Source: Salvelinus alpinus (taxonomy: Eukaryota; Chordata; Actinopteri; Salmoniformes; Salmonidae). Taken from it: a DNA stretch of 64,000 nt. A model generated the notes under the pieces. It was not told the DNA's origin. It did no database searches and saw nothing but the letters and a program-made list of their open reading frames with translations. A program made the translations under genes and the position numbers. This document shows positions 10,889 through 57,700 of the stretch, in pieces. The stretch covers positions 4,907,986 to 4,971,985 of the forward strand of contig NC_092089.1 in the NCBI RefSeq assembly GCF_045679555.1, read 5' to 3'. Position 1 is the stretch's first letter; every line of letters starts with the position of its first letter.

Positions 10889-11338
10889 GAAGAGAGAGAG
10901 AGAGGTCAAACTGAGGAGGCCGCTGGTAAGACCCCCCCTCCCAGATGATACCCAGACAGAACAGAAAAACATTTCTCACCGATGGTGACATGCCACTAAG
11001 CAAATTCAATGTAAAACAACATTATGTGGATCTTTCATTGAATATCAATTATTTTGAATTTCCCCAATTTCAAGGACTTGATGACGTGTGTATATATAAG
11101 GGCATACAAGCTTAATGTCTATGAACAAGGAATATAATTAACTCGATTATTGAATAATGTACTTATTTTACTCAATATACAAGCATATGTAACTAAATAC
11201 ATTTGTAATGTTCTTGTCTTTCAGTGGCCAGGGAAACACAACCTTATTGGATAAAACCTCTTGTTGTTTACATTCAGAGAAGATCTGTAGACAGGATGCA
11301 CAACCCAAAGACCATGAAGTTAAAAAGGGCTACTGGAA
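10889..11338 (+). other. Region after ERICH5 stop, possible further exon signals
   Basis: The same frame beyond the stop reads EERERGQTEEAA up to the donor at 10925/10926, and a strong acceptor (GTTCTTGTCTTTCAG) ends at 11223. Another acceptor-like ACTAG at about 12764 is followed by ALKEEDKPNKLFFWTRLD. These could be 3' UTR splicing or a lost C-terminus. I cannot decide between them. Confidence 0.3.
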
Positions 11339-24921: not shown

Positions 24922-25177
24922 ATGTCTACAGCCAAGCACAGGATGCGCGATAAGAAGATGAGGAACCAGCCAATCAACGTCACCTATTCCTCCCAGGGCA
25001 GCTCCCACTGGAGGAACGGAGGGGACGCCCCTACAGGTCGAGGCTATGATCTGTCTCCACATCCAAGGGGCCAGGGGTCCTCTCACTCAGGCCATGCCCA
25101 GAGAGGGGGCTGGGTCCGGGGCCACCAGAGAGAAGGACATGGGGGCTACCCGCAGGCTCTGCCCACACACATTACTG
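24922..25177 (+). CDS. pop1: POP1 coding exon 1
   Basis: ATG follows TCTGCAGAGCTATCAAAC, so the start lies eleven bases into the exon. Residues 1-85 are basic and Gly/His-rich after the conserved KKMRNQP motif. The donor is ACTG|GTAAGA. Confidence 0.95.
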
Positions 25178-27737
25178 GTAAGAACACCTTCCTGCATACA
25201 GTTGTCAATGTATTTTAAATGGATGCTCTCATGTCTTGATGGGTCTTTAAACTGATAGAGGTTCTAGCTGAGCACTTCTGCATGTCAATGTTGAACCAGC
25301 TGCAAATCAACAGCTTATTACACAATTCCAATGGCATTTAGAATGAATAAATCATGTCTGATGCTCCAACCCATTGACTTCCAGCCACAATTCCAATGGC
25401 ATTTAGAATGAGTAAATAATGCCTGATGCTCCAACTCATTGACTCCCAGCCAGCCTTTTTGTGATGTGTGGTGCTGTGCCTCTTCTCCTCAGCCTCTGCG
25501 TTTGCCAAGGCCCGGGCAGCAGAGGTGAACGCCATGTTGACGGCCGTCACCAAGACAACGGGCAGCTCCCATGTGTTTGGAGCTCTTCCTAAACACATGA
25601 GGAGGAGGGCCATGAGTCATAACACCAAGAGACTGCCCTGCAGGCTGAGAGACATGGCCAACAACATGGTGGGTTTGCCTAAGTAACACACACAGTCACA
25701 CACATAGCTCTTCCTAAACACATGAGGAGGAGGGCCATGAGTCATAACACCAAGAGACTGCCCTGCAGGCTGAGAGACATGGCCAACAACATGGTGGGTT
25801 TGTCTAAGTAACACACACAGTCACACTCACACACGCTCACACACTCACACACTCAGTCACACACACTCAGTCACACACACACTCAGTCACACACACAGTC
25901 ACACTCTCACACTCAGTTACACACACAGTCACACACACTCAGTCAGTCACACTGTCACACTCAGTCACAGTGAAACACGGCCTCTCTCTCTCTTGACTTT
26001 AAAGCATGGTCCCAGATCTGTCTCCTCTGTTATTGTCATGTCCAAACATGGAGGAATGACTAGTCACGCCTAGAGCCGGACTAGTCGCCGGACTAGTCGC
26101 GCCTAGAGCCGGACTAGTCGCGCCTAGAGCCGGACTAGTCGCGCCTAGAGCCGGACTAGTCGCGCCTAGAGCCGGAACTAGTCGCGCCTAGAGCCGGGAC
26201 TAGTCGCGCCCAGAGCCGGGACTAGTCGCGCCCAGAGCCGGGACTAGTCGCGCCCAGAGCCGGAACTAGTCACACCTAGAGCCGGACTAGAGCCGGACTA
26301 GTCACGCCTAGAGCCGGGACTAGTCGCGCCTAGAGCCGGGACTAGTCGCGCCTAGAGCCGGGACTAGTCGCGCCTAGAGCCGGGACTAGTCGCGCCTAGA
26401 GCCGGACTAGAGCCGGACTAGAGCCGGACTAGAGCCGGACTAGTCACGCCTAGAGCCGGACTAGTCACGCCTAGAGCCGGATTAGTCACGCCTAGAGCCG
26501 GAACTAGAGCCGGACTAGTCACGCCTAGAGCCGGACTAGTCCAATTACACACCAGCAGTGGCGCGGCAATATTCTGTATGTTTCGTCTCTGGTCCAGTTG
26601 GAGAAGAGTCAGAAGGCTGGTCAGAAGGTGAAGAAGGAACAGTCCAAGAGCAAGAGCCGTAAAGCCCGGCGTCGCCACGGCAACATGCTTCTGGAGTTCA
26701 ACCGTCGCCAGCGGAAGAACCTGTGGCTGGAGACGCACATCTGGCACGCCAAGCGCTTCCACATGGTCAGGAGATGGGGCTACTGTCTGGGAGACAGGCC
26801 AACCTTCAAGTGTTACAGAGCCTGCTACAGAGCCATGAGCTCCCACTGTCTAATACAGGTTAGTGTCTTTACCCACTGTGTCCTTTTTAGGCTGGATATC
26901 TGGGAAAGCACTTTGGGACAACTGATAGGAAATACATTTTGATTGATTGACTGATTTTATAGGGTCCTGTTCAAATTACTGTTCAATAAGGTTAGGAGTT
27001 CACCAGACCTGGGATAACTCTAGTTTTAAATTACTGTTCAATAAGGTTAGGAGTTCACCAGACCTGGGATAACTCTAGTTTTAAATTACTGTTCAATAAG
27101 GTTAGGAGTTCACCAGACCTGGGATAACTCTAGTTTTAAATTCCTGCTCAATAAGGTTAAGAGTTCACCAGACCTGGGATAACTCTAGTTTTAAATTCCT
27201 GCTCAATAAGGTTAGGAGTTCACCAGACCTGGGATAACTCTAGTTTTAAATTACTGTTCAATAAGGTTAGGAGTTCACCAGACCTGGGATAACTCTAGTT
27301 TTAAATTACTGCTCAATAAGGTTAGGAGTTCACCAGACCTGGGATAACTCTAGTTTTAAATTCCTGCTCAATAAGGTTAGGAGTTCACCAGACCTGGGAT
27401 AACTCTAGTTTTAAATTCCTGCTCAATAAGGTTAAGAGTTCACCAGACCTGGGATAACTCTAGTTTTAAATTCCTGCTCAATAAGGTTAGGAGTTCACCA
27501 GACCTGGGATAACTCTAGTTTTAAATTACTGTTCAATAAGGTTAGGAGTTCACCAGACCTGGGATAACTCTAGTTTTAAATGACTGCTCAATAAGGTTAG
27601 GAGTTCACCAGACCTGGGATAACTCTAGTTTTAAATATGCTTTGTGGAAAGTTAAAACATTTCTCGGGGACTATTTTCAATTCAGATCCCCAACAGTGAG
27701 GGACATGAACTTTTAGGAGAATTAAATTCTCATGTAT

Positions 27738-36700: not shown

Positions 36701-39700
36701 ACAGGGCCGGGGGGGCCAGGAGGACCAGGGCCGGGGGGGCCAGGAGGACCGGGGGGGCCAGGAGGACCAGGGCTCCCAGGGATCAACACACAGACAGCTG
36801 TGGATCTGGGCCCACCCCACCATGAAAACGGTCAGAGGGACTAATATGCAGAATCAATCAGTCGTAGAAGTATTGAACAACCATTTAACTATTCATTGAT
36901 GGTGTAATGTCTTTGTTGTTGTCTATAATCTGGTGAACTCAAGATGTCCCCTTAGGATAGTACTTTACTGAGCCCAATCAGACGTCCCCTTTGGGATTGG
37001 TAAAGTACTATCCAATCATATGTCCCCGTTGGGATCAGTAAAGTATTATCCAATCATATGTCCCCTTTGGGATCGGTAAAGTACTATCCTATCAGATGTC
37101 CCCTTTGGGATCGGTAAAGTACTATCCAATCAGATGTCCCCTTTGGGATCGGTAAAGTACTATCATTCTGACTGTGCCCCGTGTCGTGACTGTGCCCCGT
37201 GTCGTGACTGTGCCCCGTGTCGTGACTGTGCCCCGTGTCGTGACTGTGCCCCGTGTCGTGACTGTGCCCCGTGTCGTGACTGTGCCCCGTGTCGTGACTG
37301 TGCCCCGTGTCGTGACTGTGCCCCGTGTCGTGACTGTGCCCCGTGTCGTGACTGTGCCCCGTGTCGTGACTGTGCCCCGTGTCGTGACTGTGCCCCGTGT
37401 CGTGACTGTGCCCCGTGTCGTGACTGTGCCCCGTGTCGTGACTGTGCTCCGTGTCGTGACTGTGCCCCGTGTCGTGACTGTGCCCCGTGTCGTGACTGTG
37501 CCCCGTGTCGTGACTGTGCTCCGTGTCGTGACTGTGCTCTGTTCTCTGTGTCAGGACCTCCTCCCAGAGCTGCAGGCTGTCTGTCAGTGTTCTGAGGCTG
37601 TACTTCCACCTGCTCCATTAGAGCTCCCTGTCCCACAGCCAGCCCCTACCCCCACCTTGGCCCCTGGTCCTGGGGCTTGTCCTGAGGCGGTGCAGGCCCC
37701 TGCTTCTGGTTCTAAGAGGAAGTGGTCCTCCAAGGAGCCTGAGGCTGCAGGACCACCAGCCAAGAAGCTCGTGGGATACAGTACCATTTCTGCTACCACA
37801 CCCGTCACCTGGAGGTCCAGTACCACTGGAATAGTCATCAGGTTGGTTCTGACTGCTTTAGTTGTGACCTTCCAGAGTCTCTCCAAGCTCTAAGTACCTG
37901 TTAGTTGTGACCTTCCAGAGTCTCTCCAAGCTCTAAGTACCTGTTAGTTGTGACCTTCCAGAGTCTCTCCAAGCTCTAAGTACCTGTTAGTTGGACCTTC
38001 CAGAGTCTCTCCAAGCTCTAAGTACCTGTTAGTTGGACCTTCCAGAGTCTCTCCAAGCTCTAAGTACCTGTTAGTTGGACCTTCCAGAGTCTCTCCAAGC
38101 TCTAAGTACCTGTTAGTTGTGACCTTCCAGAGTCTCTCCAAGCTCTAAGTACCTGTTAGTTGGGACCTTCCAGAGTCTCTCCAAGCTCTAAGTACCTGTT
38201 AGTTGTGACCTTCCAGAGTCTCTCCAAGCTCTAAGTACCTGTTAGTTGTGACTGCTTCCAGAGTCTCTCCAAGCTCTAAGTACCTGTTAGTTGTGACTGC
38301 TTCCAGAGTCACTCCAAGCTCTAAGTACCTGTTAGTTGGACCTTCCAGAGTCTCTCCAAGCTCTAAGTACCTGTTAGTTGTGACTGCTTCCAGAGTCACT
38401 CCAAGCTCTAAGTACCTGTTAGTTGTGACCTTCCAGAGTCTCTCCAAGCTCTAAGTACCTGTTAGTTGGACCTTCCAGAGTCTCTCCAAGCTCTAAGTAC
38501 CTGTTAGTTGGACCTTCCAGAGTCTCTCCAAGCTCTAAGTACCTGTTAGTTGGACCTTCCAGAGTCTCTCCAAGCTCTAAGTACCTGTTAGTTGTGACTG
38601 CTTCCAGAGTCTCTCCAAGCTCTAAGTACCTGTTAGTTGTGACCTTCCAGAGTCTCTCCAAGCTCTAAGTACCTGTTAGTTGGACCTTCCAGAGTCTCTC
38701 CAAGCTCTAAGTACCTGTTAGTTGGACCTTCCAGAGTCTCTCCAAGCTCTAAGTACCTGTTAGTTGGACCTTCCAGAGTCTCTCCAAGCTCTAAGTACCT
38801 GTTAGTTGGACCTTCCAGAGTCTCTCCAAGCTCTAAGTACCTGTTAGTTGGACCTTCCAGAGTCTCTCCAAGCTCTAAGTACCTGTTAGTTGTGACCTTC
38901 CAGAGTCTCTCCAAGCTCTAAGTACCTGTTAGTTGTGACCTTCCAGAGTCTCTCCAAGCTCTAAGTACCTGTTAGTTGGACCTTCCAGAGTCTCTCCAAG
39001 CTCTAAGTACCTGTTAGTTGTGACCTTCCAGAGTCTCTCCAAGCTCTAAGTACCTGTTAGTTGTGACCTTCCAGAGTCTCTCCAAGCTCTAAGTACCTGT
39101 TAGTTGTGACCTTCCAGAGTCTCTCCAAGCTCTAAGTACCTGTTAGTTGGACCTTCCAGAGTCTCTCCAAGCTCTAAGTACCTGTTAGTTGGACCTTCCA
39201 GAGTCTCTCCAAGCTCTAAGTACCTGTTAGTTGGACCTTCCAGAGTCTCTCCAAGCTCTAAGTACCTGTTAGTTGTGACCTTCCAGAGTCTCTCCAAGCT
39301 CTAAGTACCTGTTAGTTGGGACCTTCCAGAGTCTCTCCAAGCTCTAAGTACCTGTTAGTTGGGACCTTCCAGAGTCTCTCCAAGCTCTAAGTACCTGTTA
39401 GTTGTGACCTTCCAGAGTCTCTCCAAGCTCTAAGTACCTGTTAGTTGTGACTGCTTCCAGAGTCTCTCCAAGCTCTAAGTACCTGTTAGTTGTGACTGCT
39501 TCCAGAGTCACTCCAAGCTCTAAGTACCTGTTAGTTGGACCTTCCAGAGTCTCTCCAAGCTCTAAGTACCTGTTAGTTGTGACTGCTTCCAGAGTCACTC
39601 CAAGCTCTAAGTACCTGTTAGTTGTGACCTTCCAGAGTCTCTCCAAGCTCTAAGTACCTGTTAGTTGGACCTTCCAGAGTCTCTCCAAGCTCTAAGTACC

Positions 39701-42700
39701 TGTTAGTTGGACCTTCCAGAGTCTCTCCAAGCTCTAAGTACCTGTTAGTTGGACCTTCCAGAGTCTCTCCAAGCTCTAAGTACCTGTTAGTTGTGACTGC
39801 TTCCAGAGTCTCTCCAAGCTCTAAGTACCTGTTAGTTGTGACCTTCCAGAGTCTCTCCAAGCTCTAAGTACCTGTTAGTTGGACCTTCCAGAGTCTCTCC
39901 AAGCTCTAAGTACCTGTTAGTTGGACCTTCCAGAGTCTCTCCAAGCTCTAAGTACCTGTTAGTTGGACCTTCCAGAGTCTCTCCAAGCTCTAAGTACCTG
40001 TTAGTTGGACCTTCCAGAGTCTCTCCAAGCTCTAAGTACCTGTTAGTTGGACCTTCCAGAGTCTCTCCAAGCTCTAAGTACCTGTTAGTTGTGACCTTCC
40101 AGAGTCTCTCCAAGCTCTAAGTACCTGTTAGTTGTGAACTTCCAGAGTCTCTCCAAGCTCTAAGTACCTGTTAGTTGGACCTTCCAGAGTCTCTCCAAGC
40201 TCTAAGTACCTGTTAGTTGTGAACTTCCAGAGTCTCTCCAAGCTCTAAGTACCTGTTAGTTGGACCTTCCAGAGTCTCTCCAAGCTCTAAGTACCTGTTA
40301 GTTGTGACCTTCCAGAGTCTCTCCAAGCTCTAAGTACCTGTTAGTTGGACCTTCCAGAGTCTCTCCAAGCTCTAAGTACCTGTTAGTTGTGACCTTCCAG
40401 AGTCTCTCCAAGCTCTAAGTACCTGTTAGTTGGACCTTCCAGAGTCTCTCCAAGCTCTAAGTACCTGTTAGTTGTGACCTTCCAGAGTCACTCCAAGCTC
40501 TAAGTACCTGTTAGTTGGACCTTCCAGAGTCTCTCCAAGCTCTAAGTACCTGTTAGTTGTGACCTTCCAGAGTCACTCCAAGCTCTAAGTACCTGTTAGT
40601 TGTGTCTGGAGGTTGGCACCTTGATGCTGTTAAGACTTGCTGAGTGTTAATATATCATTAGTCATATTTATAGTTTTCTGTCAATTTTATAAACCCCTCC
40701 CTTTATAAAACCCTCCCTTTATAAAACCCCTCCCTTTATAAAACCCTCCCTTTATAAACCCCTCCCTTTATAAAACCCCTCCCTTTATAAACCCCCTCCC
40801 TTTATAAAACCCCTCCCTTTATAAAACCCCTCCCTTTATAAAACCCCTCCCTTTATAAAACCCTCCCTTTATAAAACCCCTCCCTTTATAAACCCCCTCC
40901 CTTTATAAACCCCCTCCCTTTATAAAACCCCTCCCTTTATAAAACCCCTCCCTTTATAAACCCCTCCCTTTATTAAACCCCTCCCTTTATAAAACCCCTC
41001 CCTTTATAAAACCCCTCCCTTTATAAACCCCTCCCTTTATAAAACCCCTCCCTTTATAAACCCCTCCCTTTATAAAACCCCTCCCTTTATAAACCCGTCC
41101 CTTTATAAACCCGTCCCTTTATAAACCCCTCCCTTTATAAAACCCCCTCCCTTTATAAAACCCCCTCCCTTTATAAAACCCCTCCCTTTATAAAACCTCT
41201 CCCTTTATAAAACCCAGCACTTTATTCTCAACCATTTTTACTTCCTGAATGTTGTTGTTTACTGTTGTTTTGCAGTGACCTCACCATGGAGATGGTGCGC
41301 TATCGTCTGATTGGACCTCTATCACATTCCGTTCTGACTGAAACCCTGGCCCCTGCCACACACAGTGATGTAAGAACCTGGGATGATTTATCTAGAGACC
41401 AGCTAATCACCTGGGATGATTTAACTAGAGACCAGCTAAGAACCTGGGCTGATTTATCTGGTGACCAGCTAATCACCTGGGATGATTTATCTGGAGACCA
41501 GCTAATCACCTGGGATGATTTATCTAGAGACCAGCTAATCACCTGGGATGATTTATCTAGAGACCAGCTAATCTCCTGGGATGATTTATCTAGAGACCAG
41601 CTAAGAACCTGGGATGATTTATCTAGAGGCCAGCTAATCACCTGGGATGATTTATCTGGAGACCAGCTAAGAACCTGGGATGATTTATCTGGAGACCAGC
41701 TAAGAACCTGGGATGATTTATCTGGAGACCAGCTAATCACCTGCGATGATTTATCTAGAGGCCAGCTAATTACCTGGGATGATTTATCTGGAGACCAGCT
41801 AATATCCTGTATGTTCCAGTGTAAGGTGTTTAGTCATGTGTTTTATCTTTATTCCAGGCTACAGGTAAATCCAGACCATCTCCCTTCTGGTGGCCAGATC
41901 ACTGTAGAGACGACTGTAACATGTCTCTTCATCAACAACAAGCTGGTGTCTTCAACATGCTCAAAGGTGGGTTCCTCACAACTACATTCCTCATTCATTA
42001 CCTACATTCATTAGATTAGATCAGGGCTCGCCAACCTCCAGGAACAGGGTTGGAGTTAAAACCTCCAGGAGGGTTTCTCTCCAGGAACAGGGTCGGAGTT
42101 AAAACCTCCAGGAGGGTATCGCTCCAGGAACAGGGTTGGAGTTAAAACCTCCAGGAGGGTTTCTCTCCAAGAACAGGGTCGGAGTTAAAACCTCCAGGAG
42201 GGTATCTCTACAGGAACAGGGTTGAAGTTAAAACCTACAGGAGGGTACCTCTCCAGGAACAGGGTCGGAGTTAAAACCTCCAGGAGCGTTTCTCTCCAGG
42301 AACAGGGTTGGAGTTAAAACCTACAGGAGGGTATCTCCCCAGGAACAGGGTCCTCAATCAGTCATAGGAAACAGACATGTTTATCTTCAAGGTCCTGTCT
42401 CTCCTCCCCTCCAAAGCGTAACTCCTGTCTCTCCTCCCCTCCAAAGCGCACCTCATGTCTGTCCTGTCTCTCCTCCCCTCCCAAGCGTAACTCGTCTGTC
42501 CTGTCTCTCCTCCCCTCCAAAGCGTACCTCATGTCTGTCCTGTGTCTCCTCCCCTCCAAAGCGTAACTCGTCTGTCCTGTCTCTCCTCCCCTCCAAAGCG
42601 TAACTCGTCCGTCCTGTCTCTCCTCCCCTCCAAAGCGTAACTCGTCCGTCCTGTCTCTCCTCCCCTCCAAAGCGTAACTCGTCTGTCCTGTCTCTCCTCC

Positions 42701-45700
42701 CCTCCAAAGCGTAACTCGTCTGTCCTGTCTCTCCTCCCCTCCAAAGCGTACCTCATGTCTGTCCTGTCTCTCCTCCCCTCCAAAGCGTACCTCATGTCTG
42801 TCCTGTCTCTCCTCCCCTCCAAAGCGTACCTCATGTCTGTCCTGTCTCTCCTCCCCTCCAAAGCGTACCTCATGTCTGTCCTGTCTCTCCTCCCCTCCAA
42901 AGCGTAACTCCTGTCTCTCCTCCCCTCCAAAGCGTAACTCCTGTCTCTCCTCCCCTCCAAAGCGTAACTCCTGTCCTCTCCTCCCCTCCAAAGCGTAACT
43001 CCTGTCGTCTCCTCCCCTCCAAAGCGTAACTCCTGTCCTCTCCTCCCCTCCAAAGCGTAACTCCTGTCTCTCCTCCCCTCCAAAGCGTAACTCCTGTCCT
43101 CTCCTCCCCTCCAAAGCGTAACTCCTGTCCTCTCCTCCCCTCCAAAGCATAACTCCTGTCCTCTCCTCCCCTCCAAAGCGTAACTCCTGTCCTCTCCTCC
43201 CCTCCAAAGCGTAACTCCTGTCCTCTCCTCCCCTCCAAAGCGTAACTCCTGTCCTCTCCTCCCCTCAAAAGCGTAACTCCTGTCTCTCCTCCTCTCCAAA
43301 GCGTAACTCCTGTCTCTCCTCCCCTCCAAAGCGTAACTCCTGTCTCTCCTCCCCTCCAAAGCGTAACTCCTGTCCTCTCCTCCCCTCCAAAGCGTAACTC
43401 CTGTCTGTCCTGTCTCTCCTCCCCTCCAAAGCGTAACTCCTGTCTCTCCTCCCCTCATGTCTGTCCTGTCTCTCCTCCTCTCCAAAGCGTAACTCCTGTC
43501 TCTCCTCCCCTCCAAAGCGTAACTCCTGTCCTCTCCTCCCCTCCAAAGCGTAACTCCTGTCCTCTCCTCCCCTCCAAAGCTTAACTCCTGTCCTCTCCTC
43601 CCCTCCAAAGCGTAACTCCTGTCTCTCCTCCCCTCCAAAGCGTAACTCCTGTCTCTCCTCCCCTCCAAAGCGTAACTCCTGTATCTCCTCCCCTCCAAAG
43701 CGTAACTCCTGTCCTCTCCTCCCCTCCAAAGCGTAACTCCTGTCTCTCCTCCCCTCCAAAGCGTAACTCCTGTCTCTCCTCCCCTCCAAAGCGTAACTCC
43801 TGTCCTCTCCTCCCCTCATGTCTGTCCTGTCTCTCCTCCCCTCCAAAGCGTAACTCCTGTCTCTCCTCCCCTCCAAAGCGTAACTCCTGTCTCTCCTCCC
43901 CTCCAAAGCGTAACTCCTGTCCTCTCCTCCCCTCCAAAGCGTAACTCCTGTCCTCTCCTCCCCTCCAAAGCGTAATTCCTGTCCTCTCCTCCCCTCCAAA
44001 GCGTAACTCCTGTCCTCTCCTCCCCTCCAAAGCGTAACTCCTGTCCTCTCCTCCCCTCCAAAGCGTAACTCCTGTCCTCTCCTCCCCTCCAAAGCGTAAC
44101 TCCTGTCCTCTCCTCCCCTCCAAAGCGTAACTCCTGTCCTCTCCTCCCCTCATGTCTGTCCTGTCTCTCCTCCCCTCCAAAGCGTAACTCCTGTCCTCTC
44201 CTCCCCTCCAAAGCGTAACTCCTGTCTCTCCTCCCCTCCAAAGCGTAACTCCTGTCTCTCCTCCTCTCCAAAGCGTAACTCCTGTCTCTCCTCCCCTCCA
44301 AAGCGTAACTCCTGTCTCTCCTCCCCTCCAAAGCGTAACTCCTGTCCTCTCCTCCCCTCCAAAGCGTAACTCCTGTCTGTCCTGTCTCTCCTCCCCTCCA
44401 AAGCGTACCTCATGTCTGTCCTGTCTCTCCTCCCCTCCAAAGCGTAACTCCTGTCTCTCCTCCCCTCATGTCTGTCCTGTCTCTCCTCCTCTCCAAAGCG
44501 TAACTCCTGTCTCCTCCCCTCCAAAGCGTAACTCCTGTCTCTCCTCCCCTCCAAAGCGTAACTCCTGTCCTCTCCTCCCCTCCAAAGCGTAACTCCTGTC
44601 CTCTCCTCCCCTCCAAAGCGTAACTCCTGTCCTCTCCTCCCCTCCAAAGCGTAACTCCTGTCTCTCCTCCCCTCCAAAGCGTAACTCCTGTATCTCCTCC
44701 CCTCCAAAGCGTAACTCCTGTATCTCCTCCCCTCCAAAGCGTAACTCCTGTCCTCTCCTCCCCTCCAAAGCGTAACTCCTGTCTCTCCTCCCCTCCAAAG
44801 CGTAACTCCTGTCTCTCCTCCCCTCCAAAGCGTAACTCCTGTCCTCTCCTCCCCTCATGTCTGTCCTGTCTCTCCTCCCCTCCAAAGCGTAACTCCTGTC
44901 TCTCCTCCCCTCCAAAGCGTAACTCCTGTCTCTCCTCCCCTCCAAAGCGTAACTCCTGTCCTCTCCTCCCCTCATGTCTGTCCTGTCTCTCCTCCTCTCC
45001 AAAGCGTAACTCGTCTGTCCTGTCTCTCCTCCCCTCCAAAGCGTACCTCATGTCTGTCCTGTCTCTCCTCCCCTCCAAAGCGTACCTCATGTCTGTCCTG
45101 TCTCTCCTCCAAAGCGTAACTTGTCTGTCCTGTCTCTCCTCCCCTCCAAAGCGTAACTCGTCTGTCCTGTCTCTCCTCCCCTCCAAAGCGTAACTCCTGT
45201 CCTCTCCTCCCCTCATGTCTGTCCTGTCTCTCCTCCTCTCCAAAGCGTAACTCGTCTGTCCTGTCTCTCCTCCCCTCCAAAGCGTACCTCATGTCTGTCC
45301 TGTCTCTCCTCCCCTCCAAAGCGTACCTCATGTCTGTCCTGTCTCTCCTCCCCTCCAAAGCGTACCTCATGTCTGTCCTGTCTCTCCTCCCCTCCAAAGC
45401 GTACCTCATGTCTGTCCTGTCTCTCCTCCAAAGCGTAACTTGTCTGTCCTGTCTCTCCTCCCCTCCAAAGCGTAACTTGTCTGTCCTGTCTCTCCTCCAA
45501 AGCGTAACTCGTCTGTCCTGTCTCTCCTCCCCTCCAAAGCGTAACTCGTCTGTCCTGTCTCTCCTCCCCTCCAAAGCGTAACTCGTCTGTCCTGTCTCTC
45601 CTCCCCTCCAAAGCGTAACTCGTCTGTCCTGTCTCTCCTCCCCTCCAAAGCGTAACTCGTCTGTCCTGTCTCTCCTCCCCTCCAAAGCGTAACTCGTCTG

Positions 45701-48700
45701 TCCTGTCTCTCCTCCCCTCCAAAGCGTAACTCGTCTGTCCTGTCTCTCCTCCAAAGCGTAACTCGTCTGTCCTGTCCTCTCCTCCCCCTCCAAAGCGTAA
45801 CTCGTCTGTCCTGTCTCTCCTCCCCTCCAAAGCGTAACTCGTCTGTCCTGTCTCTCCTCCCCTCCAAAGCGTAACTCGTCTGTCCTGTCTCTCCTCCCCT
45901 CCAAAGCGTAACTCGTCTGTCCTGTCTCTCCTCCCCTCCAAAGCGTAACTCGTCTGTCCTGTCTCTCCTCCTCTCAGGTGTGTACTCCACAGCGGAGGTC
46001 CCAGCCGGCTCAGTTCTGGGTCTGACGGTGGATGACCCCAGATTGACCTTACCAAACAAGAGAAGCAAGGCCGTGTCCGACTTCAGGAAGGCACAAGGTA
46101 ACCTCTGAGCCAGTAGCCATGGCAACCTCTGAGCCAGTAGCCATGGCAACCTCTGAGCCAGTAGCCATGGTAACCTCTGAGCCAGTAGCCATGGCAACCT
46201 CTGAGCCAGTAGCCATGGTAACCTCTGAGCCAGTAGCCATGGCAACCTCTGAGCCAGTAGCCATGGCAACCTCTGAGCCAGTAGCCATGGCAACCTCTGA
46301 GCCAGTAGCCATGGTAACCTCTGAGCCAGTAGCCATGGCAACCTCTGAGCCAGTAGCCATGGTAACCTCCGAGCCAGTAGCCATGGTAACCTCTGAGCCA
46401 GGAGCCAGGGTGGGGTGGTTCAGACAGGTCCGATATAGTTTACATTACATCATTATTCTCCTTTAGGGTGATTCTACCTGGGTCATGCTCAGAACACAAC
46501 CTTTTCAATCAGAGTGAAACTGTGAAGTAGCCTACTACCTAATATTCAATAAGAACGCATGCAAGAAAGTATAGTAGATTGTTCCCTGCTGAACAGGACC
46601 CTGTGTTTGTGAATGTGATGGTTATAGGTCCTGAGGCTTTGTGGGTAGGGAGGTTCTGTGGGTCATTCTCTGGTCTTCTGGTTGTGGTACTTCTCTGGTC
46701 CTGTCTGAGGGCTGGTTGTGGTACTTCTCTGGTCCTGTCTGAGGGCTGGTTGTGGTACTTCTCTGGTCCTGTCTGAGGGCTGGTTGTGGTACTTCTCTGG
46801 TCCTGTCTGAGGGCTGGTTGTGGTACTTCTCTGGTCCTGTCTGAGGGTTGGTTGTGGTACTTCTCTGGTCCTGTCTGAGGGCTGGTTGTGGTACTTCTCT
46901 GGTCCTGTCTGAGGGCTGGTTGTGGTACTTCTCTGGTCCTGTCTGAGGGCTGGTTGTGGTACTTCTCTGGTCCTGTCTGAGGGCTGGTTGTGGTACTTCT
47001 CTGGTCCTGTCTGAGGGCTGGTTGTGGTACTTCTCTGGTCCTGTCTGAGGGCTGGTTGTGGTACTTCTCTGGTCCTGTCTGAGGGCTGGTTGTGGTACTT
47101 CTCTGGTCCTGTCTGAGGGCTGGTTGTGGTACTTCTCTGGTCCTGTCTGAGGGCTGGTTGTGGTACTTCTCTGGTCCTGTCTGAGGGCTGGTTGTGGTAC
47201 TTCTCTGGTCCTGTCTGAGGGCTGGTTGTGGTACTTCTCTGGTCCTGTCTGAGGGCTGGTTGTGGTACTTCTCTGGTCCTGTCTGAGGGCTGGTTGTGGT
47301 ACTTCTCTGGTCCTGTCTGAGGGCTGGTTGTGGTACTTCTCTGGTCCTGTCTGAGGGCTGGTTGTGGTACTTCTCTGGTCCTGTCTGAGGGCTGGTTGTG
47401 GTACTTCTCTGGTCCTGTCTGAGGGTTGGTTGTGGTACTTCTCTGGTCCTGTCTGAGGGCTGGTTGTGGTACTTCTCTGGTCCTGTCTGAGGGCTGGTTG
47501 TGGTACTTCTCTGGTCCTGTCTGAGGGCTGGTTGTGGTACTTCTCTGGTCCTGTGCTCCTGGGGAGCCTCTGCTCGTCCATGCAGATGTCCCAGGTTCGA
47601 ATCCTGGCAGGACCCTGTGCTCAGACCACGCCCTCAGAGGTTCACACCCACTTCCTTATTTACCTTTTTAGTACCTGGCTGGGGGTTGCATCACCCACTT
47701 CCTTATTTACCTTTTTAGTACCTGGCTGGGGGTTACATCACCCACTTCCTTATTTACCTTTTAGTACCTGGCTGGGGGTTGCATCACTCACTTCCTTATT
47801 TACCTTTTTAGTACCTGGCTGGGGGTTGCATCACCCACTTCCTTATTTACCTTTTAGTGCCTGGCTGGGGGTTGCATCACCCACTTCCTTATTTACCTTT
47901 TAGTACCTGGCTGGGGGTTGCATCACCCACTTCCTTATTTACCTTTTAGTACCTGGCTGGGAGTTACATCACCCACTTCCTTATTTACCTTTTAGTACCT
48001 GGCTGGGGGTTGTATCACCCACTTCCTTATTTACCTTTTAGTACCTGGCTGGGGGTTACATCACCCACTTCCTTATTTACCTTTTAGTACCTGGCTGGGG
48101 GTTGCATCACCCACTTCCTTATTTACCTTTTAGTACCTGGCTGGGGGTTGCATCACTCACTTCCTTATTTACCTTTTAGTACCTGGCTGGGGGTTGCATC
48201 TCCCACTTCCTTATTTACCTTTTAGTGCCTGGCTGGGGTTTACATCACCCACTTCCGTATTTACCTTTTAGTGCCTGGCTGGGGGTTGCATCACCCACTT
48301 CCTTATTTACCTTTTAGTGCCTGGCTGGGGGTTGCATCACCCACTTCCTTATTTACCTTTTAGTACCTGGCTGGGGGTTGCATCACCCACTTCCTTATTT
48401 ACCTTTTAGTACCTGGCTGGGGGTTGCATCACCCACTTCCTTATTTACCTTTTAGTACCTGGCTGGGAGTTACATCACCCACTTCCTTATTTACCTTTTC
48501 GTACCTGGCTGGGGGTTGCATCACCCACTTCCTTATTTACCTTTTAGTACCTGGCTGGGGGTTGCATCTCCCACTTCCTTATTTACCTTTTTAGTACCTG
48601 GCTGGGGGTTACATCACCCACTTCCTTCTTTACCTTTTAGTACCTGGCTGGGGGTTGCATCACTCACTTCCTTATTTACCTTTTTAGTACCTGGCTGGGG

Positions 48701-51700
48701 GTTGCATCACCCACTTCCTTATTTACCTTTTAGTGCCTGGCTGGGGGTTGCATCACCCACTTCCTTATTTACCTTTTAGTGCCTGGCTGGGGGTTGCATC
48801 ACCCACTTCCTTATTTACCTTTTAGTACCTGGCTGGGGGTTGCATCACCCACTTCCTTATTTACCTTTTAGTACCTGGCTGGGGGTTGCATCACCCACTT
48901 CCTTATTTACCTTTTAGTACCTGGCTGGGAGTTACATCACCCACTTCCTTATTTACCTTTTAGTACCTGGCTGGGGGTTGCATCACCCACTTCCTTATTT
49001 ACCTTTTAGTACCTGGCTGGGGGTTGCATCACCCACTTCCTTATTTACCTTTTAGTGCCTGGCTGGGGGTTGTATCACCCACTTCCTTATTTACCTTTTA
49101 GTACCTGGCTGGGGGTTACATCACCCACTTCCTTATTTACCTTTTAGTACCTGGCTGGGGGTTGCATCACCCACTTCCTTATTTACCTTTTAGTACCTGG
49201 CTGGGGGTTGCATCACTCACTTCCTTATTTACCTTTTAGTACCTGGCTGGGGGTTGCATCTCCCACTTCCTTATTTACCTTTTAGTGCCTGGCTGGGGTT
49301 TACATCACCCACTTCCGTATTTACCTTTTAGTGCCTGGCTGGGGGTTGCATCACCCACTTCCTTATTTACCTTTTAGTACCTGGCTGGGGGTTGCATCAC
49401 CCACTTCCTTATTTACCTTTTAGTACCTGGCTGGGGGTTGCATCACCCACTTCCTTATTTACCTTTTAGTACCTGGCTGGGAGTTACATCACCCACTTCC
49501 TTATTTACCTTTTAGTACCTGGCTGGGGGTTGCATCACCCACTTCCTTATTTACCTTTTAGTACCTGGCTGGGGGTTGCATCTCCCACTTCCTTATTTAC
49601 CTTTTTAGTACCTGGCTGGGGGTTACATCACCCACTTCCTTATTTACCTTTTAGTACCTGGCTGGGGGTTGCATCACTCACTTCCTTATTTACCTTTTTA
49701 GTACCTGGCTGGGGGTTGCATCACCCACTTCCTTATTTACCTTTTAGTGCCTGGCTGGGGGTTGCATCACCCACTTCCTTATTTACCTTTTAGTACCTGG
49801 CTGGGGGTTGCATCACCCACTTCCTTATTTACCTTTTAGTACCTGGCTGGGGGTTGCATCACCCACTTCCTTATTTACCTTTTAGTACCTGGCTGGGAGT
49901 TACATCACCCACTTCCTTATTTACCTTTTAGTACCTGGCTGGGGGTTGCATCACCCACTTCCTTATTTACCTTTTAGTACCTGGCTGGGGGTTGCATCAC
50001 CCACTTCCTTATTTACCTTTTAGTACCTGGCTGGGGGTTACATCACCCACTTCCTTATTTACCTTTTAGTACCTGGCTGGGGGTTGCATCACCCACTTCC
50101 TTATTTACCTTTTAGTACCTGGCTGGGGGTTGCATCACTCACTTCCTTATTTACCTTTTAGTACCTGGCTGGGGGTTGCATCTCCCACTTCCTTATTTAC
50201 CTTTTAGTGCCTGGCTGGGGTTTACATCACCCACTTCCGTATTTACCTTTTAGTGCCTGGCTGGGGGTTGCATCACCCACTTCCTTATTTACCTTTTAGT
50301 GCCTGGCTGGGGGTTGCATCACCCACTTCCTTATTTACCTTTTAGTACCTGGCTGGGGGTTGCATCACCCACTTCCTTATTTACCTTTTAGTACCTGGCT
50401 GGGGGTTGCATCACCCACTTCCTTATTTACCTTTTAGTACCTGGCTGGGAGTTACATCACCCACTTCCTTATTTACCTTTTAGTACCTGGCTGGGGGTTG
50501 CATCACCCACTTCCTTATTTACCTTTTAGTACCTGGCTGGGGGTTGCATCACCCACTTCCTTATTTACCTTTTAGTGCCTGGCTGGGGGTTGTATCACCC
50601 ACTTCCTTATTTACCTTTTAGTACCTGGCTGGGGGTTACATCACCCACTTCCTTATTTACCTTTTAGTACCTGGCTGGGGGTTGCATCACCCACTTCCTT
50701 ATTTACCTTTTAGTACCTGGCTGGGGGTTGCATCACTCACTTCCTTATTTACCTTTTAGTACCTGGCTGGGGGTTGCATCACTCACTTCCTTATTTACCT
50801 TTTAGTACCTGGCTGGGGGTTGTATCACCCACTTCCTTATTTACCTTTTAGTACCTGGCTGGGGGTTGCATCACCCACTTCCTTATTTACCTTTTAGTAC
50901 CTGGCTGGGAGTTACATCACCCACTTCCTTATTTACCTTTTAGTACCTGGCTGGGGGTTGCATCACCCACTTCCTTATTTACCTTTTAGTACCTGGCTGG
51001 GGGTTGCATCACCCACTTCCTTATTTACCTTTTAGTGCCTGGCTGGGGGTTGTATCACCTACTTCCTTATTTACCTTTTAGTACCTGGCTGGGGGTTGCA
51101 TCACTCACTTCCTTATTTACTGGGTGCAGGCCTATAGAGCTACGAGGTGAAGCAGTAGATGTTGCCAACTAGTTGTGTGCTTCCTCTGGCCGACTCGACG
51201 TAGTTTGGTGACTCTCCTGAGCACCTGGTCATACGGCAGTATGCCCTCTGTCATGTTGTTTCAGGAGTGAACGAGAAGAGGAGGAGGGAACTGATGTTAA
51301 AGGGGATCCCTGAACCCCTCAGCCAGAGTTCCCTGTGGGACCGGTCTGTCCGCGACAACGTCACACACAACAAGATGACAGACCAGGTACTGAACCATAG
51401 CACCATGTCTGTTAATATATCATTAATAAATGTGTCCCTCAGGAGACTATCCAGGAAGAAGAATATATTTTCCTCGTGTTTGATTGTTCTTCAGGAATCC
51501 ATCCTGCTGTTTAATTGAATCCTTGACTGTGTTTGTATCCAGGTTTATATCCAATTGGCAACAGATGTTCATGTGAATAAAAAATTAAAATAAAATCGGC
51601 ATTAAAACAATATGCACATTTTCCCACCAGATGTATTTCCATCACATTGACTTGTTTCAGGTTAAAGGCTGTGTGTGATGACGTAGTGCACATAAAAATA

Positions 51701-54700
51701 CCTTCTGTTGTTAAATTCCCTCATAAATAAACAATACAAGTTAGATGGGTTTCCATCGCATTCACAGAAACTGTTTCCTGTCAGGTTCTGGAGCATTCAC
51801 AGAAACTGTTTTCTGTCAGGTTCTGGAGCATTCACAGAAACTGTTTTCTGTCAGGTTCTGGAGCATTCACAGAAACTGTTTCCTGTCAGGTTCTGGAGCA
51901 TTCACAGAAACTGTTTCCTGTCAGGTTCTGGAGCATTCACAGAAACTGTTTCCTGTCAGGTTCTGAAGCATTCACAGAAACTGTTTCCTGTCAGGTTCTG
52001 GAGCATTCACAGAAACTGTTTCCTGTCAGGTTCTGGAGCATTCACAGAAACTGTTCCCTGTCAGGTTCTGGAGCATTCACAGAAACTGTTTCCTGTCAGG
52101 TTCTGGAGCATTCACAGAAACTGTTTCCTGTCAGGTTCTGGAGCATTCTCTATAGACAACAGTTCACTGTCAGGTTCTGGAGCATTCTCTCAAGACAACA
52201 GTTCACTGACAGGTTCTGGAGCATTCTCTATAGACAACAGTTCACTGACAGGTTCTAGAGCATTCTCTCTAGACAACAGTTCACTGACAGGTTCTGGAGC
52301 ATTCTCTCTAGACAACAGTTCACTGTCAGGTTCTGGAGCATTCTCTCTAGACAACAGTTCACTGTCAGGTTCTGGAGCATTCTCTATAGACAACAGTTCA
52401 CTGTCAGGTTCTGGAGCATTCTCTCTTGACAACAGTTCACTGTCAGGTTCTGGAGCATTCTCTCTAGACAACAGTTCACTGTCAGGTTCTGGAGCATTCT
52501 CTCTAGACAACAGTTCACGGTCAGGTTCTGGAGCATTCTCTCTAGACAACAGTTCACTGTCAGGTTCTGGAGCATTCTCTCTAGACAACAGTTCACTGTC
52601 AGGTTCTGGAGCATTCTCTCTAGACAACAGTTCACTGACAGGTTCTGGAGCATTCTCTCTAGACAACAGTTCACTGACAGGTTCTGGAGCATTCTCTCTA
52701 GACAACAGTTCACTGACAGGTTCTGGAGCATTCTCAGAAACTGTTTCCTGTCAGGTTCTGGAGCATTCACAGAAACTGTTTCCTGTCAGGTTCTGGCGCA
52801 TTCACAGAAACTGTTTCCTGTCAGGTTCTGGAGCATTCTCTCTAGACAACAGTTCACTGTCAGGTTCTGGAGCATTCTCTCTAGACAACAGTTCACTGTC
52901 AGGTTCTGGAGCAGTCTCTCTAGACAACAGTTCACTGTCAGGTTCTGGAGCATTCTCTCTAGACAACAGTTCACTGTCAGGTTCTGGAGCATTCTCTCTA
53001 GACAACAGTTCACTGACAGGTTCTGGAGCATTCTCTCTAGACAACAGTTCACTGACAGGTTCTGGAGCATTCTCTCTAGACAACAGTTCACTGACAGGTT
53101 CTGGAGCATTCTCTCTAGACAACAGTTCACTGACAGGTTCTGGAGCATTCTCTATAGACAACAGTTCACTGACAGGTTCTGGAGCATTCTTTCTAGACAA
53201 CAGTTCACTGTCTGGTTCTGGAGCATTCTCTCTAGACAACAGTTCACTGACAGGTTCTGGAGCATTCTCTCTAGACAACAGTTCACTGTCAGGTTCTGGA
53301 GCATTCTCTCTAGACAACAGTTCACTGACAGGTTCTGGAGCATTCTCTCTAGACAACAGTTCACTGTCAGGTTCTGGAGCATTCTCTCTAGACAACAGTT
53401 CACTGTCAGGTTCTGGAGCATTCTCTCTAGACAACAGATCACTGTCAGGTTCTGGAGCATTCTCTCTAGACAACAGTTCACTATCAGGTTCTGGAGCATT
53501 CTCTCTAGACAACAGTTCACTGTCAGGTTCTGGAACATTCTCTCTAGACAACAGTTCACTGACAGGTTCTGGAGCATTCTCTCTAGACAACAGATCACTG
53601 TCAGGTTCTGGAGCATTCTCCAGGTTTACCACTGGTTAGTACAACGTACCATGTCATGGCCTGACATCATACATTTTACCAACCAAAAAATATCATACCA
53701 TGTCTTAGGAACATTTTTCTGTTGACATTTTGTGAAAATGTATCACACCTGTGGTGATTTATTTTCATACGGTGTAACTTGCATTAAAAACTTTGGATGG
53801 AAACGTGGTTTGTCTCCCATATCCAGTCTTCTCTCTGTCTACAGGAAGTAAACAGACTGCGTAATGATGTTCTGGTCCCAGGCTCCAGACTACCCACCCC
53901 CCTGCAGGGTAGAGTACCCGTCCTACTGGTGCAGCAGTCTGGGAAGAGCCAGGGCACAGAGATGGGGTCCTGGGGGACGGGCTGGGACCTGCTGCTACCC
54001 AAGGCCTGGGGCATGGCCTTCTGGGTCCCTCTGGTATGGACTACACATGCCCTATATAGTGCACTACTGTAGACCAGGACCCAATAGCATCCTATTCCCT
54101 GTATAGTGCACTACTTTAGGCCAGGACCCAATGGCACCCTATTCCCTGTATAGAGCACTACTTTAGACCAGGACCCTATTCCCTATATAGTACACTACTT
54201 TAGACCAGGACCCAACCCTATTCCCTATATAGTGCACTACTGTAGACCAGGGCCCACCCTATTCCCTATATAGTGCACTACTTTAGACCAGGACCCAATG
54301 GCACTCTATTCCCTATATAGTGCACTACTTTAGACCAGGACCCAATGGAACCCTATTCCCTATATAGTGCACTACTTTAGACCAGGACCCAACCCTATTC
54401 CCTATATAGTGCACTACTTTAGACCAGGACCCACCCTATTCCCTATATAGTGCACTACTGTAGACCAAGGCCCACTCTATTCCCTATATAGTGCACTACT
54501 TTAGACCAGGACCCAATGGAACCCTATTCCCTATATAGTGCACTACTTTAGACCAGGACCCAATGGAACCCTATTCCCTATATAGACCAAAGGCCATAGA
54601 ATATGTTGTTATAGTACTTTTTGAGGAGCCCCTCTAAGTAGACAAATGACTAATTACTCCAAACATGTCTGATCGACCTCCTCTCCAGGTAGGTGGAGGA

Positions 54701-57700
54701 GTGGTAACTAAGTAGACACCCTCTCCTTCAGGTTTATAGAGGAGTACGTATCGGAGGGCTGAGGATGAGTCTGAAACACGCACAGAATAAAGGAGAGCCT
54801 CACTTTCCCCACGACTACCCAGACTGCCCTGCAGGAGCACGCTTCCAGGAAGAGCAGGAGGCTGAGCTGCTGGCCAAGTTCAGGAGGTGAGGAGAGGGTC
54901 GGTTTCACCAGGTGTGTTGAGGAGAGGGTCGGTATCACCTGATGTAACTCCAGGTGTGTTGAGGAGAGGGTTGGTATCACCTGATGTAACTCCAGGTGTG
55001 TTGAGGAGAGGGTTGGTATCACCTGATGTAACTCCAGGTGTGTTGAGGAGAGGGTTGGTATCACCTGATGTAACTCCAGGTGTGTTGAGGAGAGGGTCGG
55101 TATCACCTGATGTAACTCCAGGTAAAAGGGGGTGTCTGGTAGTGTTTGATAAAGTCTAACTCACTGTTATTCTGGATGTTCCATACTGTATATAATGGCT
55201 CTCAAACCAACATATTATTAATTCAGGATCTGTGTTAACACTGTTAATATTCAAGTCAGATTACTGATGAGAGTTTAATATAAACTATCCATTGAGTTTC
55301 ATATTTCAACTGAGCTCATTTCATCAAGTGGAGGCTAATGACTGGGTTATATATGAATTGTTACATAAACGGCTGGGTTGCCCCTCGTGCCCTGAAACAG
55401 TTTGACTAGAGCATGACCCTGACCTCTGTAGGCGCCCACCAGCCAAACGGACCAATTACATCAAACATGGCTGCCTGGCTCCGTTCCGTTGTCCCTGGCA
55501 ACAGCTGGTCGAGGAGTGGCAGCTGATTGTGAAGGAGGGAGGAGGAGAGGAGGCTGTTGCAACAATGGAACAGGAAGTGACAACACCCCAGAGGAACTTC
55601 ACAGTCTTGAGGTAGATGCCACTTCTGGATGATACTGTATATACAGTGGGGAGAATAAGTATTTGATACACTGCCGATTTTGCAGGTTTTCCTACTTCCA
55701 AAGCATGTAGACGTCTGTAATTTTTTATCATAGGTACACTTCAACTGTGAGAGACGGAATCTAAAACAAAAATCCAGAAAATCACATTGTATAATTTTTA
55801 AGTAATTAATTTGCATTTTATTGCATGACATAAGTATTTGATCACCTACATTTAAAGTTAATGTTACCGCGGTAGTGGAGACTGCATTCACGGCCAGCGC
55901 TGCATATGTCGGCTCAATGGGAAATAATCTTTCAATTTCTATAGCGCTTCGGCCTTAGACTGAATAGAGTCCTGAATCTGTAGCGCTTCGGCCTTCGACT
56001 GAATAGAGTCCTGAATCTGTAGCGCTTCGGCCTTCGACTGAATAGAGTCCTGAATCTGTAGCGCTTCGGCCTTCGACCGAATAGAGTCCTGAATCTGTAG
56101 CGCTTCGGCCTTCGACCGAATAGAGTCCTGAATCTGTAGCGCTTCGGCCTTCGACTGAATAGAGTCCTGAATCTGTAGCGCTTCGGCCTTCGACCGAATA
56201 GAGTCCTGAATCTGTAGCGCTTCGGCCTTCGACCGAATAGAGTCCTGAATCTGTAGCGCTTCGGCCTTCGACCGAATAGAGTCCTGAATCTGTAGCGCTT
56301 CGGCCTTCGACCGAATAGAGTCCTGAATCTGTAGCGCTTCGGCCTTCGACTGAATAGAGTCCTGAATCTGTAGCGCTTCGGCCTTAGACTGAATAGAGTC
56401 CTGAATCTGTAGCGCTTCGGCCTTCGACTGAATAGAGTCCTGAATCTGTAGCGCTTCGGCCTTCGACTGAATAGAGTCCTGAATCTGTAGCGCTTCGGCC
56501 TTCGACTGAATAGAGTCCTGAATCTGTAGCGCTTCGGCCTTCGACTGAATAGAGTCCTGAATCTGTAGCGCTTCGGCCTTCGACTGAATAGAGTCCTGAA
56601 TCTGTAGCGCTTCGGCCTTCGACTGAATAGAGTCCTGAATCTGTAGCGCTTCGGCCTTCGACTGAATAGAGTCCTGAATCTGTAGCGCTTCGGCCTTCGA
56701 CTGAATAGAGTCCTGAATCTGTAGCGCTTCGGCCTTCGACCGAATAGAGTCCTGAATCTGTAGCGCTTCGGCCTTCGACTGAATAGAGTCCTGAATCTGT
56801 AGCGCTTCGGCCTTAGACTGAATAGAGTCCTGAATCTGTAGCGCTTCGGCCTTAGACTGAATAGAGTCCTGAATCTGTAGCGCTTCGGCCTTCGACTGAA
56901 TAGAGTCCTGAATCTGTAGCGCTTCGGCCTTCGACTGAATAGAGTCCTGAATCTGTAGCGCTTCGGCCTTCGACTGAATAGAGTCCTGAATCTGTAGCGC
57001 TCGGCCTTCGACCAAATCTCGATAGAAAGTGTTTTTCATTATCTCTAATAATAGTTTCCTCTCCTCTGCATAACTTATAGTATTAATTCATAATGTTTTA
57101 ATAATTACATTTCACCTTTTATGAAACCCTTATTGTTGTTTAAATAATGCCTTGCCCTTTTCCCCCCCACAGCGTAGCGTAGTGTCTGACAGCTCTGATG
57201 CATAACCCCTCCCCAGCATACCTTTCATGATGAGAACATCCTGACCCAAATTACTGCCCCACATCAGAGAGATGATCCTCCTAAAATCAGCAGCTTATAG
57301 AGTAATGGCTGACTTCATGAGCTCAGATTGCGTTTTTACTGCGTTTTTGGTGCTGGGAATCACTGGGCGGTTTAATACCATTTAAGACCACTTTGTTGGT
57401 TCACTGAGGATACAAAGTGACTTTCCTAGAAGTAGTGGCCGTATTCTATAAACGCTGAGCCACGATTGGGTTCCGCAGCGTAAACACTGAACCCTAATTG
57501 GTTGTCTCTGTGTTCAACAGGAACAGGAAGTCTCTAAGGCAGCTGTCCGCTTGGTGTCGCCCCACATCCTCTAAATGTCAGAGGGCACGTAACCTGGGAT
57601 CAACACCTCAACTCAACCGTAACGTCGCAGCGTCTCTCCTCTCGGCACACGGCGGCAGCAGCCTTGTGTGGACCCGTCTCTCCCTCGTCACCAAGGGCCA

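Follow-up and report, generated by a model that had tools for sequence, protein, structure and literature searches.

Tandem repeats of variable copy number are known from fish introns, among them introns 1 and 3 of the growth hormone gene in the Sparidae, including gilthead sea bream (PMC3045353). In zebrafish, 43 tandem repeats overlap intron/exon boundaries, one of them with a 30-base unit (PMC2901318), and in human, short tandem repeats and other non-B motifs are enriched at exon-intron junctions (PMC9065059). A search of open-licence PubMed Central only returned no paper on minisatellites abutting donors in salmonids, which is weak evidence of absence. As in Atlantic cod, the tandem-repeat load of the DNA analyzed here, a 64-kb stretch referred to below as the window, is unusual for a teleost: tandem arrays called with TRF make up 67.6% of it, against 0.5–3% in typical eukaryotic genomes (PMC5241972).

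Genes and array load in the window

POP1 was modelled with 14 coding exons that join into an open frame of 1002 aa, the product matching human POP1 (6ahr_B) with 915 bits and containing the Pfam domains POP1_N, POPLD and POP1_C, and RIDA was modelled with six exons on the minus strand and a Ribonuc_L-PSP domain (Pfam). The exon numbers in the first-pass annotation of this DNA are coding-exon numbers. Nineteen introns were modelled (13 in POP1, five in RIDA and one in an ERICH5-like gene), and the 17 that bear arrays were used in the tests, two array-free RIDA introns being dropped; the POP1 intron 5′ of coding exon 1 and the remaining ERICH5-like introns lie outside this set. Over the whole window, Rfam gave no structured-RNA match at gathering score, and ARAGORN returned one tRNA-like match (47547–47615) with no type assigned.

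Arrays occupy 82% of the 13 POP1 introns, and the unique sequence left in each of the 17 array-bearing introns amounts to 60–1713 bases (median 308), with fewer than 200 bases in 8 of them, so that some contacts between arrays and splice sites are to be expected anyway. At the contacts, which were read base by base as well as with TRF, the array periods are 18, 24, 30–33, 40, 42–43 and 47 bp, all in the minisatellite range of 10–100 bp; the case at POP1 exon 2, a 2-copy duplication of 125 bp, lies beyond that unit size. The contact arrays are intronic minisatellites in real genes, POP1 and RIDA. Inspection of the TRF consensus units bore out the initial impression that their families are unrelated in sequence, and we conclude that the arrays arose independently.

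Arrays at donors and acceptors

The five POP1 and both RIDA contacts named in the first-pass annotation all exist, by TRF and by base-by-base reading, but three donor contacts, at POP1 coding exons 2, 6 and 11, had been overlooked, and it had left unsaid that the nearest array lies more than 17 bases away at 10 of the 17 donors and 14 of the 17 acceptors. Across the array-bearing introns, donor gaps are either 0–16 bases or at least 69, and acceptor gaps are 2, 2 and 17 bases and then at least 40.

The coding-exon-2 donor is spanned by a young tandem duplication of 125 bp (25581..25830, plus strand; TRF 25581–25826, period 125), each of whose two copies consists of 88 exon bases and 37 intron bases. 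The copies are identical at 122 of 125 positions, and both contain ATG/GTGGGT (slash at the junction), scoring 7.6 as a donor in each case on a table of textbook frequencies, which underlies all donor scores given here. Splicing from the second copy would lengthen the exon by 125 bases and shift the frame. This duplication shows an example of an array seed.

The array positions, gaps and unit sequences at the other donors can be read directly. POP1 exon 6 (37555..37841, plus strand; like exons 7, 9 and 12, placed by the open frame and the 6ahr_B match) is followed after 16 bases by a minisatellite of 42–43-bp units (37858..40604, plus strand; TRF), and a 47-bp-type array (54050..54586, plus strand; TRF) likewise begins 16 bases 3′ of exon 11. 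The 33-bp minisatellite after exon 7 (exon 41276..41369, array 41371..41803, both plus strand) had been described as starting at intron base 2; the TRF edge (41376) lies 6 bases in, but the array shares sequence from base 2, TAAGA (+2 to +6) being found again in 4 of the 12 later copies, so the stated start stands. After exon 9 (45978..46097, plus strand), a 24-bp minisatellite (46098..46407, plus strand; TRF 46100–46407) directly follows the exon, in register with intron base 1 as reported, and of its 13 units 6, including the first, start with GT and 7 with GC. The 42-bp minisatellite after exon 12 (exon 54732..54886, array 54888..55123, both plus strand; TRF rows 54879–54937 and 54908–55123) opens at intron base 2, also as reported, with a partial copy that agrees with the following one at 21 of 24 positions (counted from intron base 1 on). 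On the minus strand, a 40-bp minisatellite (16084..16447; TRF and base-by-base reading) begins 10 bases past the RIDA exon 4 donor.

The 3.6-kb pyrimidine array before exon 9 (42393..45975, plus strand; TRF), which stops 2 bases short of the exon, is built of units of ~30–37 bp composed of a TAAC-like motif, a long pyrimidine tract and AAG, and its last unit is the exon 9 acceptor tract. The array is 74% pyrimidine, and positions 42393–45977 contain AAG 102 times, TAAC 88 times, TAG never and CAG once, at 45975–45977, which is the real exon 9 acceptor. A CT-rich array on the minus strand (15330..15601; TRF and base-by-base reading; 86% pyrimidine on the transcript strand) likewise serves as the pyrimidine tract for the acceptor of RIDA exon 6, with a gap of 2 bases. 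At these two acceptors the polypyrimidine tract is repeat-derived; the array at the exon 6 acceptor of POP1 (18-bp units, 37169..37537, plus strand; TRF; 61% pyrimidine) only partly fits that description, and its distance from the exon is 17 bases rather than the 14 first given. The three arrays that approach an acceptor to 17 bases or less have pyrimidine fractions of 0.61, 0.74 and 0.86 and are richer in pyrimidine than the 29 other arrays (one-sided P 0.008).

Explanations for the contacts

Donors and acceptors were scored separately against a null model in which the same arrays were placed randomly within their own introns. Seven of 17 donors lay within 16 bases of an array where 1.98 were expected (P ~0.001), and 2 of 17 acceptors, again with 1.98 expected, which is no excess. 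The suggestion that splice sites in general are preferred seeds for arrays therefore fails at acceptors; it came from a tally of contacts that ignored the 82% array content. A preference for splice sites in general was not confirmed. When array edges were extended uniformly (one rule for all, edges falling in exons set to 0), 7 of 17 donors were within 16 bases of an array (P 0.0016) and 4 of 17 within 1 base (0.25 expected). For strict arrays (score ≥100, ≥3 copies) the figures were 5 of 16 within 16 bases (1.70 expected, P 0.017) and, at a 2-base cut-off, 1 of 16 (0.31 expected, P 0.27). The direct contrast of donors with acceptors was not significant (Fisher P 0.12). At 16 bases the donor excess holds under five array definitions (P 0.001 to 0.017), and thus survives, as a post hoc result from a single locus; array contacts at intron 5′ ends outnumber those that crowding by itself would give, and merit testing across the genome.

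Crowding together with limits set by splicing explains part of this pattern. The reading we favor, at a probability of roughly 0.55, is one of independent duplications in crowded introns whose splicing signals limit the reach of the arrays. Short tandem duplications, each independent, would seed arrays within the introns of a repeat-saturated gene, and splicing would determine how closely an array can approach an exon; because little unique sequence is left in most introns, array edges are often near exons. A donor needs few intron bases, so arrays reach base 1–2 in three cases and base 11–17 in three more, whereas an acceptor needs a branch point and a pyrimidine tract, so in 14 of 17 introns arrays stop at least 40 bases short. 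The exceptions would be acceptors at which the units themselves provide the pyrimidine tract, as at POP1 exon 9 and RIDA exon 6. We infer that these limits reflect selection on splicing and that array edges advance outward until they reach them. Of the two options first offered for the contacts, expansion tolerated up to the boundary fits the anatomy better than preferred seeding, although the donor excess leaves some room for a donor-specific form of the latter.

Several observations temper the favored reading. A limit alone makes no pile-up, so the donor excess, for which crowding is insufficient, requires outward array growth, some slight bias in seeding or plain chance. The high pyrimidine content close to acceptors may stem from what was duplicated rather than from selection, and the lack of any further CAG in the exon 9 array is largely the legacy of one ancestral unit. 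Some array copies are, moreover, strong donors. Copies in the exon 7 array score at most 0.0 (6.4 at the real donor) and those in the exon 9 array 4.9 or −1.7 (7.1 at the real donor), in keeping with the favored reading, but five copies in the exon 12 array, where the copied site is CAG/GTGTGT, reach 9.7, against 10.2 at the authentic donor, and at exon 2 the two copies stand at 7.6. Selection against donor-like sites in arrays was considered as a general rule and rejected: at a score of at least 7, intron arrays contain 399 donor-like sites in sense (6 of 32 arrays) and 95 in antisense (4 of 32), and at a score of at least 8 there are 92 of each; sense sites are common in arrays lying away from exons, and a general purge is absent.

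Alternatively, one could envision donors as the preferred sites of first duplication, from which arrays start at intron base 1–2, for instance by breakage or slippage where transcription pauses, or because the donor motif shares a short identical stretch with its surroundings. The excess at donors only, its sharpness with uniformly extended edges and the duplication that spans the exon-2 donor all speak for this, as does a baseline in which only 4.8% of 9041 random non-array intron positions have an array within 16 bases downstream. However, the locus is single and was picked after the pattern was noticed, the excess weakens with strict arrays and is not significant at 2 bases, donors and acceptors do not differ significantly, and in zebrafish boundary-overlapping tandem repeats are few beside the 26,909 intronic ones (PMC2901318). 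Seeding through sequence shared between flank and unit was also rejected, little being common to the two beyond the tested edges: 10 of 11 anchored comparisons at the contacts gave no significant shared sequence past the tested edge, the exception being a shared run of 5 bases at exon 7, in comparison with a single chosen copy (uncorrected P 0.014). The fixed-period test did not work at exon 12, whose array has its first copy shifted by 30 bases instead of 42; direct comparison there gives the 21 of 24 matches noted above. We therefore regard donor seeding as unlikely here, and slightly less credit still is due to the broader proposition that 5′ splice sites seed tandem expansion in this lineage, with duplications at or across donors commoner than at other intron positions, producing arrays that open at intron base 1–2 and lengthening introns from their 5′ ends.

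It is similarly doubtful that pure crowding in once-short introns made the contacts by accident, the donor excess being luck plus selective noticing. In favor of crowding, placement alone gives about two donors and two acceptors within 16 bases, there is no acceptor excess, and the observation was selected out of the whole window. Capping the unique sequence at 100 bases brings the expectation to 4.75 donors, but the threshold-corrected P remains at 0.01, in a test that leans to small P because three donor edges were hand-corrected. Against crowding stands the persistence of the donor excess in all five array definitions. That the assembler partly made the array lengths and edges is very improbable, for although a 100-N gap (31504–31603) lies within the intron-3 array, the 248 bases preceding it match 34528–34775 at 244 of 248 as if a contig end had been placed twice, and a neighbouring coding exon has two frame changes, the gap is away from every contact and POP1 keeps an open frame through its 14 coding exons, so that the junction sequence looks sound even if array lengths may be wrong.

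Should the donor contacts hold genome-wide, splice sites would either seed the growth of minisatellites or sharply limit it, and the length of introns in repeat-rich fish might be followed back to single duplications at exon edges. Exon 9, whose 120 bases lie between arrays at 2 and 0 bases, is a useful locus even under an ordinary reading, and its acceptor, which ends some 100 near-copies of its own pyrimidine tract, provides a natural experiment on spliceosomal choice between repeated sites.

Comparison with described systems

The Sparidae growth hormone introns resemble those of POP1 in their variable-copy tandem repeats, but most POP1 introns carry arrays, these are unrelated and several touch junctions; abutment is not mentioned in the part of the growth hormone report used here (PMC3045353). 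The zebrafish boundary repeats are rare relative to intronic ones, in a survey of exact repeats only (PMC2901318). In C. elegans the minisatellite CeRep25B is over-represented near alternatively spliced regions (PMC4039745), but it is one family, whereas the POP1 and RIDA arrays belong to unrelated families and splicing here was read from gene models.

The initial statement that no described mechanism predicts such contacts was too strong for acceptors: a human study anticipated an enrichment of short tandem repeats at exon-intron junctions, since some of them coincide with polypyrimidine tracts (PMC9065059), and the acceptors of POP1 exon 9 and RIDA exon 6 match this. In contrast to the human repeats, the units here are mostly 18–47 bp long and the arrays reach kilobases, and the excess lies on the donor side, where the pyrimidine tract does not explain it.

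Genes and repeat load

POP1 lies on the + strand as 14 coding exons (24911-58239, ATG at 24922) which join into a 1002-codon open frame; its product matches human POP1 (6ahr_B) at 915 bits and carries the POP1_N, POPLD and POP1_C domains. RIDA, on the - strand (six exons, 24108 to ~15270), has a Ribonuc_L-PSP domain, and a third gene (3323-4932 and further), rich in glutamate and proline, may be ERICH5 to judge by human gene order. TRF blocks of period at least 9 make up 67.6% of the window (43,293/64,000 bases) and 82% (24,855/30,308 bases) of the 13 introns separating the coding exons of POP1; a share of 0.5-3% is given as typical of eukaryotic genomes in a paper on the cod genome (PMC5241972).

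Coding exon 5 of POP1 contains a GC-rich 18/24-bp array (36691-36780) encoding a stretch rich in Gly, Arg and Gln, for which the aligned portion of human POP1 shows no equivalent. The ERICH5-like coding exon (3323-4932) holds several 18- and 27-bp arrays of in-frame length, as well as a 36-bp array present again in a later exon (10756-10900); its open frame shifts twice, through either consensus error or decay. A 5.8-kb array in RIDA intron 2 (16970-22818), remote from all exons, contains 336 donor-like sites with a score of at least 7 on the transcript strand, 159 of them GTGGTGAGA. Between two arrays of POP1 intron 9 lies a tRNA-like match of no called type (47547-47615), which may be a tRNA-derived repeat. 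Unrelated 38-bp and 18-bp arrays lie just 4 bases apart (37164-37169), so arrays adjoin one another too and not exons alone.

Array edges at donors and acceptors

The first-pass annotation had named seven contacts at which arrays start or stop at splice sites; all seven are present, at slightly altered distances, and coding exons 2, 6 and 11 add three donor contacts to its list. The gaps between donor and nearest TRF array edge are 143, 0, 114, 417, 143, 16, 6, 69, 2, 391, 16, 0 and 326 bases in the 13 POP1 introns, 165, 10 and 116 in the array-bearing RIDA introns, and 446 in the ERICH5-like intron. Acceptor gaps in the same 17 introns are 40, 56, 217, 311, 17, 60, 54, 2, 144, 224, 145, 308, 508, 72, 310, 2 and 118, so that 10/17 donors and 14/17 acceptors have no array within 17 bases.

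When array positions were randomised, with the arrays and unique sequence of each intron retained, donor contacts exceeded expectation both within 16 bases (7/17 observed, 1.98 expected, P = 0.001) and within 2 bases (3 versus 0.36, P = 0.0045); for acceptors the counts were 2 versus 1.98 within 16 bases (17 introns) and 2 versus 0.36 within 2 bases (P = 0.048). A single edge-extension rule applied to every array gave 4 donors within 1 base (0.25 expected) and 7 within 16 bases (2.05 expected, P = 0.0016), and a stiffer mismatch penalty left 6/17 within 16 bases (P = 0.0074). With strict arrays (score at least 100, at least 3 copies) the figures were 5/16 within 16 bases (1.70 expected, P = 0.017) and 1 within 2 bases (0.31 expected, P = 0.27). 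Capping unique sequence at 100 bases, in imitation of once-short introns, gave a threshold-corrected donor P of 0.01 that is biased to small values by three hand-corrected edges. Compared directly, donors and acceptors did not differ significantly (Fisher P = 0.12). The donor excess is modest, acceptors show none overall, and the pattern was picked post hoc at a single locus.

Anatomy of the contacts

POP1 exon 9 (45978-46097, + strand) has one array 2 bases upstream and another immediately downstream, the latter built of 24-bp units in register with intron base 1, of which 6/13, the first included, start with GT and 7/13 with GC. After exon 7, the 33-bp units carry CT at the position of the donor GT, and TAAGA of that donor recurs in 4/12 later copies. 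At the exon 12 donor the first partial copy begins at base 2; CAG|GTGTGT in five full copies scores 9.7 versus 10.2 at the real donor, so array copies are not invariably weak donors. The exon 2 donor is crossed by a duplicated 125-bp stretch (88 exon and 37 intron bases, copies 122/125 identical); both donors score 7.6, and use of the second would add 125 bases, a number not divisible by three. This duplication has the look of a seed prior to growth, one that may or may not expand later.

The 3.6-kb array 5' of exon 9 is 74% pyrimidine, and 42393-45977 contains 88 TAAC, 102 AAG, no TAG and a single CAG, the exon 9 acceptor itself. Every unit thus looks like a branch point and a pyrimidine tract, with AAG replacing a good acceptor, if TAAC is indeed read as a branch point. 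The RIDA exon 6 acceptor likewise uses a CT-rich array, and the arrays that come within 17 bases of an acceptor, three in all, have a higher pyrimidine content than the remaining 29 (one-sided P = 0.008), which could reflect selection or merely the nature of the duplicated sequence. Short tandem repeat enrichment at human junctions was foreseen by its authors on polypyrimidine-tract grounds (PMC9065059).

Origin of the donor surplus and known systems

We favour, at a probability of roughly 0.55, a splicing limit combined with outward growth or a mild bias. Unrelated duplications, each seeded independently, would expand in introns retaining little unique sequence; because the spliceosome requires few bases 3' of a donor and many 5' of an acceptor, the two ends would differ. 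Arrays do reach base 1-2 after an exon, yet keep at least 40 bases before the next exon in 14/17 introns. With nothing but a limit one would expect clean edges and no pile-up, so the surplus needs a further cause, for which arrays growing outward to the limit, seed bias to donors and luck are candidates. Against this reading, intronic arrays show no general purge of donor-like sites, exons 12 and 2 retain strong second donors, and a zebrafish exact-repeat survey gives 43 repeats across intron/exon boundaries versus 26,909 intronic ones (PMC2901318), so that boundary contact is no general teleost rule.

True donor seeding seems to us unlikely, and crowding plus luck equally so. That the pattern is an artefact is very improbable, even though the intron 3 array of POP1 is interrupted by 100 N (31504-31603). 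The 248 bases before this gap match 34528-34775 at 244/248, and the 200 array bases preceding each copy are identical. Probably a single contig end was placed twice (the regions concerned are 31256-31603 and 34528-35080), which makes that array's length unreliable.

We found no report of arrays starting at donors in salmonids in the open-licence PubMed Central literature, and the donor-side surplus merits one genome-wide test. Intronic minisatellites are known from fish, as in the growth hormone gene of sea bream (introns 1 and 3; PMC3045353). At the present locus the density of arrays is unusual, and they show a surplus on the donor side.
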